This document shows positions 52,208 through 58,916 of a stretch of 64,000 bases of DNA, piece by piece; position 1 is the stretch's first letter, and each line of letters starts with the position of its first letter. This DNA comes from Candidatus Desulforudis audaxviator MP104C (GTDB lineage Bacteria > Bacillota > Desulfotomaculia > Desulfotomaculales > Desulforudaceae): the NCBI RefSeq assembly GCF_000018425.1, contig NC_010424.1:1566501-1630500 (forward strand), read 5' to 3'. A program made the position numbers and the translations under genes. A model generated the notes under the pieces. It ran no database searches, was not told the origin of the DNA, and saw only the letters and a program-made list of their open reading frames with translations.

Positions 52208-52426
52208 AAAATCCAATCCTCCCCTACACTGTAAGTTCTAATCGTGCACATTAATACTCTATCAATACTTATCGCCGAGGTCTAACCATATTCTCCATTC
52301 TCCGGACTCAAAACCGGCGTGCACAACAGCGTTAATAAAAGTTTTTTATACAGAGGATAATAATATGGTTGAAATTAATTCCTGGTGATAAAATTGAGGA
52401 AATGTTTGGACTAAGGGGTGGAGTGT

Positions 52427-53494
52427 GTGGACGCCCCCAGATTGACTTCCCTGACGGTCGGCGGCGGGTGAGCGGCCAAAGTCGGGCCTGAGGCTCTGGC
52501 CCAAGTCTTGAATCATTTACCGGCCATGGAAGACGCCCGGCTGCTGGTGGGAATTGAAACGGCGGACGACGCCGGTGTCTTTTTGATTAACGACGATACG
52601 GCGCTTTTGCAGACCGTCGATTTCTTCACGCCCATCGTTGACGACCCGCGCCGCTTCGGCCAGATCGCAGCCGCCAACGCCCTGAGTGATATCTACGCCA
52701 TGGGCGGCATCCCGCTCACGGCCCTGAACATCATCTGCTACCCCACCAAAGAGGGGCACCTGGACGTCCTGGCTGAAATACTGATCGGCGGGGCGGAAAA
52801 GGTCCGGGAAGCCGGCGCCGTGATTGTGGGCGGGCACAGCGTCGAGGACAAGGAACCCAAATACGGCCTGGCGGTCACCGGGATCGTGCATCCTGATCTG
52901 TTGGTACGGAACAGCACGGCTCGGCCGGGAGACCGGTTGGTGCTCACCAAGCCTCTGGGCACCGGCATCGTCACCTCGGCGGTAAAAGCAAATATAGTGC
53001 CCGCCGAACTCCAGGAGGCGGTTACGGTCCAGATGGCTGCCTTGAACGACCGGGCGGCCCGGGCCATGCGCGAAACCGGGCCTTCGGCCTGCACCGACAT
53101 CACCGGTTTCGGACTTCTGGGGCACGCGCTGGAGATGGCCCGGGGCAGCAAGGTGGGTCTGATTTTCGAGGCCGGCAGTCTGCCGGTCATCGAGCGGGCT
53201 CCGGAATACGCCGCCCTGGGACTGATCCCGCGCGGGGCGCACGCCAACCGCTGCTTCATCGGCGAGCACGTGTCCTTCGAACAGGACGTGCCGCTCGCGC
53301 TCCAGGACCTGATGTTCGACCCGCAGACTTCGGGCGGGCTTTTGATCGCCGTTCCGGACAACCGGCTCCGCACGCTGATGCACAAGCTGGCGGAGTACGG
53401 GGTGTACGAGGCGCGGATCGTCGGCGAGGTGACCGACGAGCTTTCCCCAGGCCGCATCCTGGTCCGCGCCGGAAACGGGGCCACGGCGGAATAG
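52427..53494 (+). CDS. selD: selenide, water dikinase (selenophosphate synthetase), itself a selenoprotein
   Basis: It makes selenophosphate from selenide and ATP for Sec-tRNA synthesis. Translation from GTG at 52427 (AAGGGG eight bases upstream) gives VDAPRLTSLTVGGG, then an in-frame TGA (52469-52471), then AAKVGPEALAQVLNHLPAME into the usual SelD body: GIETADDAGVFLINDDTALL, GGHSVEDKEPKYGLAVTG, TDITGFGLLGHALEMARGSK and PQTSGGLLIAV. In the family this position is Cys or Sec followed by the catalytic Lys two residues later (GGG-U-AAK), so the TGA is read as Sec15. The total length is 355 residues. A version beginning after the TGA would lack the active site. Confidence 0.93.
52484..52502 (+). 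promoter_or_regulatory. candidate SECIS element in selD mRNA
   Basis: Stem GGGCC / GGCCC with a nine-base G/U-rich loop starting 13 bases after the Sec TGA, the place of bacterial SECIS hairpins bound by SelB. The stem is short; larger alternative folds were not evaluated. Confidence 0.4.
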
Positions 53495-58791: not shown

Positions 58792-58904
58792 CCCAACCGG
58801 AAACCGCCCTTCTCCTTTCCGCAATGGGAGGCGTGCCCGTTTCCGGGCACACCCTGTCGGTTCGCCGGCCTTAGCCCCATGGGCCTTAGGCCGTGAACTC
58901 GGAG
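58792..58904 (-). ncRNA. Moco (molybdenum/tungsten cofactor) riboswitch
   Basis: The minus strand holds the Moco motif landmarks in order: CTCCGAG start, CCTAAGG...CCATGG (tetraloop receptor-like), GAACCGAC, the hairpin GTGCCCG-GAAA-CGGGCAC with GNRA loop, GCCTCCC, GGAAAGGAG and a closing GGTTTCCGGTTGGG. The segment GCCTCCC...GGAAAGG is shared with the known E. coli moaA leader. Cofactor binding would control tungstate uptake. Confidence 0.82.
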
Positions 58905-58916
58905 AAAGCTGGTCTA

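Follow-up and report, generated by a model that had tools for sequence, protein, structure and literature searches.

Genes for selenophosphate synthetase (SelD) that carry an in-frame UGA for Sec have been known for about two decades. The Sec-containing enzyme is one of the two commonest selenoproteins of bacteria (PMC1794560; PMC13188914), and the published model of the bacterial SECIS element (bSECIS) describes a stem of 4–16 bp and a loop of 3–9 nt with a G in the first two loop positions, 16–37 nt from the UGA (PMC13188914). We analysed a stretch of 64,000 nucleotides of the Candidatus Desulforudis audaxviator MP104C genome (NC_010424.1, positions 1,566,501 to 1,630,500, forward strand; hereafter the window), in which a selD gene is interrupted by such a TGA. 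In the excerpts available to a literature search on this species and selenoproteins there was no statement on its SelD.

The gene is of a kind already known and shows every testable feature of that kind. It resembles the Sec-containing bacterial SelD or SPS2 (TIGR00476; PMC1794560, PMC4561486, PMC13188914) in its full-length sequence match, in an N-terminal loop whose Sec is followed three residues on by the catalytic Lys, in a SECIS-like stem after the UGA and in the Sec machinery of its genome. We see no essential difference from these proteins; about half of the relatives keep the distal of two stem positions (hp2, below) intact, and in the window's genus it is degenerate. Sec-SelD is routine in the lineage of the window and common in Clostridia. 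The preliminary description of this DNA had presented the gene as a hidden selenoprotein, and the surprise implied there is not warranted, as Sec-SelD is long known and the TGA is found in nearly every relative examined.

Results and discussion

Reading frame and active site of the window's selD

The selD frame opens at GTG 52427, runs for 14 codons to a TGA at 52469–52471 and then stays open until the TAG at 53492–53494, so that the whole gene (selenide, water dikinase; 52427–53494, plus strand) would encode 355 residues, of which residue 15 is Sec. The residues around the TGA read TVGGG-U-AAK-VGP. Both this frame and the assignment of GGG-U-AAK-VGP to the SelD active-site loop had been proposed beforehand, and both are borne out, the TGA aligning with Cys17 of the E. 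coli enzyme and the Lys following three residues on. The mechanical ORF begins at TTG 52508, past the active site, which agrees with the earlier remark that an ordinary gene call starting there loses it. The GTG start is supported because L049, a relative from the same family, starts with ATG at precisely this position, and because a likely Shine-Dalgarno sequence, AAGGGG (52413–52418, plus strand), lies 8 nt before it, with AAGGAG at the same place, 8 nt upstream of the selD start codon, in the same-genus relatives L113 and L048. A scan for a promoter and terminator of selD gave results at chance level.

With the TGA read as Sec, the product scores 383.4 bits against the TIGR00476 selD profile, well over the curated cut-off of 125 bits, and covers profile positions 1–309 of 311; when the part before the TGA is left out the score is 351.7 bits and the profile is matched only from position 32 onwards. 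The best match among solved structures, by sequence, is 3u0o, in whose alignment query residue 15 (the UGA codon) falls on chain residue 17 and query Lys18 on Lys20. In the E. coli enzyme these chain residues are Cys17 and the catalytic Lys20. On this alignment the Sec-UGA codon (52469–52471, plus strand) is the equivalent of Cys17 and the AAA codon at 52478–52480 (plus strand) that of the catalytic Lys, which gives the N-terminal loop its Cys or Sec followed by Lys. The E. coli protein aligns over residues 4–337 with Lys20 and the Asp motifs conserved, but it has Cys where the window's SelD has the Sec-UGA.

Conservation of the UGA and the Sec machinery

Aligning SelD homologues had been proposed as a check, and in this alignment (99 genes, 95 of them distinct, from Bacillota, Myxococcota, Synergistota, Chloroflexota, Actinomycetota and others) the Sec codon is TGA, read through, in 98 of the 99 and TGT (Cys) in one. 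The in-frame UGA therefore stands where homologues have Sec or, as in E. coli, Cys. SelD is present in all 60 genomes searched (the organism's own and those of its genus, family and order), and each full-length selD copy among those listed contains one in-frame TGA. The nearest named homologues of the window's SelD come from Desulforudis and Desulfopertinax assemblies. In one same-family genome a partial selD-like match (G006:C18:25224-25805) has an internal TGA as well as a TAA and is probably a decaying copy.

The genome of the window is a single contig (C1) of 2,349,476 bases. It was predicted to hold selA, selB and tRNA-Sec outside the window, and all three were found: a tRNA-Sec gene (selC) with a UCA anticodon at C1:1006319–1006408, selA at C1:1150569 (637 bits) and selB directly downstream of selA. 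In-frame TGA codons also occur in a homologue of the formate dehydrogenase alpha subunit (FdhA) and in three FlpD/MvhD-like genes, and UGA is therefore probably decoded at several sites. The genome search did not find ybbB (selenouridine) or yqeB (Se cofactor). Elsewhere in the window, a molybdenum/tungsten cofactor riboswitch (RF01055, 74.6 bits, 58796–58916, minus strand) lies just upstream of what appears to be an ABC transporter operon of the tungstate type, also on the minus strand.

A conserved structure after the UGA

Across 95 homologues the 48 nt after the UGA are more stably folded than their synonymous-codon shuffles, with a mean z of −1.20 (standard error 0.11); segments further downstream in selD give mean z values of −0.35 to 0.00. 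RNAalifold returned no structure for the 95 sequences, and pairing was counted instead at two fixed stem positions, hp1 (positions 16–28, numbered from the T of the TGA) and hp2 (positions 30–46). Full pairing was found for hp1 in 38 of the 95 (3.6 expected from synonymous shuffles) and for hp2 in 49 (3.8 expected); one or the other was complete in 76, where 1000 shuffles gave a mean of 7.2 and a maximum of 16, an excess for which no exact significance is claimed, as the shuffles keep the relatedness of the sequences. Several paired columns of hp1 and hp2 show more than one pair type, and the best hairpins lie mainly 16–17 nt and 33 nt from the UGA. Cys-SelD enters this comparison as the single TGT sequence. 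Mutual replacement of hp1 and hp2 on the tree yielded seven supported independent pairs only and was not significant. The structure is conserved in the family beyond the needs of protein coding.

Among the SelD mRNAs of loci L018–L117 the stem-loop occupies one of two alternative positions within 16–46 nt of the T of the Sec-UGA, its loop being about 17 or about 31–33 nt from the UGA. At the distal position AGGUNCU is a frequent loop sequence, and it resembles the loop of the E. coli fdhF SECIS.

In the window, the first stem base comes 13 bases after the TGA, with GGGCC at 52484–52488. This arm can form the bSECIS candidate GGGCC-UGA-GGCUC (52484–52496, plus strand), with five of five pairs at the family's proximal position hp1, or can pair instead with GGCCC at 52498–52502 to give GGGCC-UGAGGCUCU-GGCCC; with its loop 17 nt from the UGA, either form falls within the limits of the published model. 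A remnant of the distal stem hp2 (52498–52514, plus strand) keeps three of five pairs and is degenerate in the genus. The GC hairpin claimed at this distance from the TGA thus stood as to position and bSECIS fit, but taken alone it is no more stable than shuffled sequence (free-energy z about 0; z +0.08). Support for this candidate hairpin is comparative, together with its agreement with the bSECIS model.

Alternative readings of the UGA

If translation really stopped at TGA 52469, or if this TGA were an error of assembly, the protein would begin at TTG 52508 and lack the active-site loop. The mechanical ORF, which begins there, and the unremarkable stability of the window's hairpin on its own speak for this reading. 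It was rejected: 98 of the 99 homologues, which come from many separate assemblies, have TGA in the same column, and this refutes it in substance and excludes chance or sequencing error. In addition, the residues upstream of the TGA match the SelD profile from its position 1, the upstream start codon and ribosome site are conserved, and a SelD so truncated would be without the Sec or Cys and the Lys required for activity. We consider this reading barely conceivable.

It is also very unlikely, if by a hair less so, that the UGA is read through without Sec, for instance as Cys by a second tRNA. Cys would be catalytically acceptable in SelD, and the genome does contain a tRNA-Sec-like gene with a GCA (Cys) anticodon, U73 and an encoded CCA (G000:C1:67537-67627, minus strand; locus L003, 1501–1591). 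This gene, missed by ARAGORN, is flanked by a LysR gene of the selenium type on one side and by genes resembling yedE and yedF (these two named by eye from sequence) on the other, and it agrees with the published selC* class of tRNA-Cys (PMC7609411). Of 41 related genomes, its own included, 14 contain matches to it. A GCA anticodon, however, reads UGC and UGU, not UGA, and the canonical UCA tRNA-Sec, selA and selB are all present.

We are therefore left in very little doubt that the window's gene, judged by its sequence, encodes a genuine selenoprotein SelD whose Sec would sit in the flexible active-site loop and whose UGA would be decoded via SelB. SelA would make Sec-tRNA on the selC transcript, and SelB would carry it and recognise the stem-loop that begins 13 bases past the UGA, so that UGA 52469 would be decoded as Sec. 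With ATP, SelD would convert selenide to selenophosphate, the selenium donor for SelA, and since SelD supplies that donor it would itself be made by the pathway it feeds. Sec is presumably inserted, and the enzyme active, in this organism.

A second Sec-SelD in the same genome

A second selD with an in-frame Sec-UGA (SelD2) lies at G000:C1:2090681-2091601 (minus strand; locus L098). It has a strong post-UGA hairpin of its own, AGAUCGG-GCAUU-CCGAUCU. Genes of its type have the motif TSYSPGSG-U-ACKIG; they were found in 12 of the 60 genomes searched, all 12 of which also have the window type, and in a quick tree the 12 genes form one supported clade separate from that type (SH-aLRT 99). In nine of the 12 stretches a LysR gene starts divergently a few hundred bases or less from SelD2, and in five a TrsS/Tes-like radical SAM gene and an adjacent methyltransferase gene follow it. 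At L098 (4403–8630) there are a divergent LysR regulator, a TrsS/Tes-like radical SAM enzyme and a DVU_1556-like methyltransferase, all scoring under curated cut-offs. As a precedent for two selD genes only Photobacterium profundum was found, in which one copy has Sec and the other Cys (PMC1273633). Tentatively, and with the odds against it, one could imagine that the two divergent Sec-SelDs divide the work, the window's enzyme supplying Sec synthesis and SelD2 serving a separate, undescribed use of selenium or acting as a regulated isoenzyme.

Left to mechanical gene calling, a central selenium enzyme would lose its active site, a point that bears on annotation and not on discovery. At the level of the genome, gene and machinery together confirm the expectation that this organism would decode UGA as Sec, and the finding that a single genome has two Sec-SelD paralogues could raise the question of a specialised selenophosphate supply.
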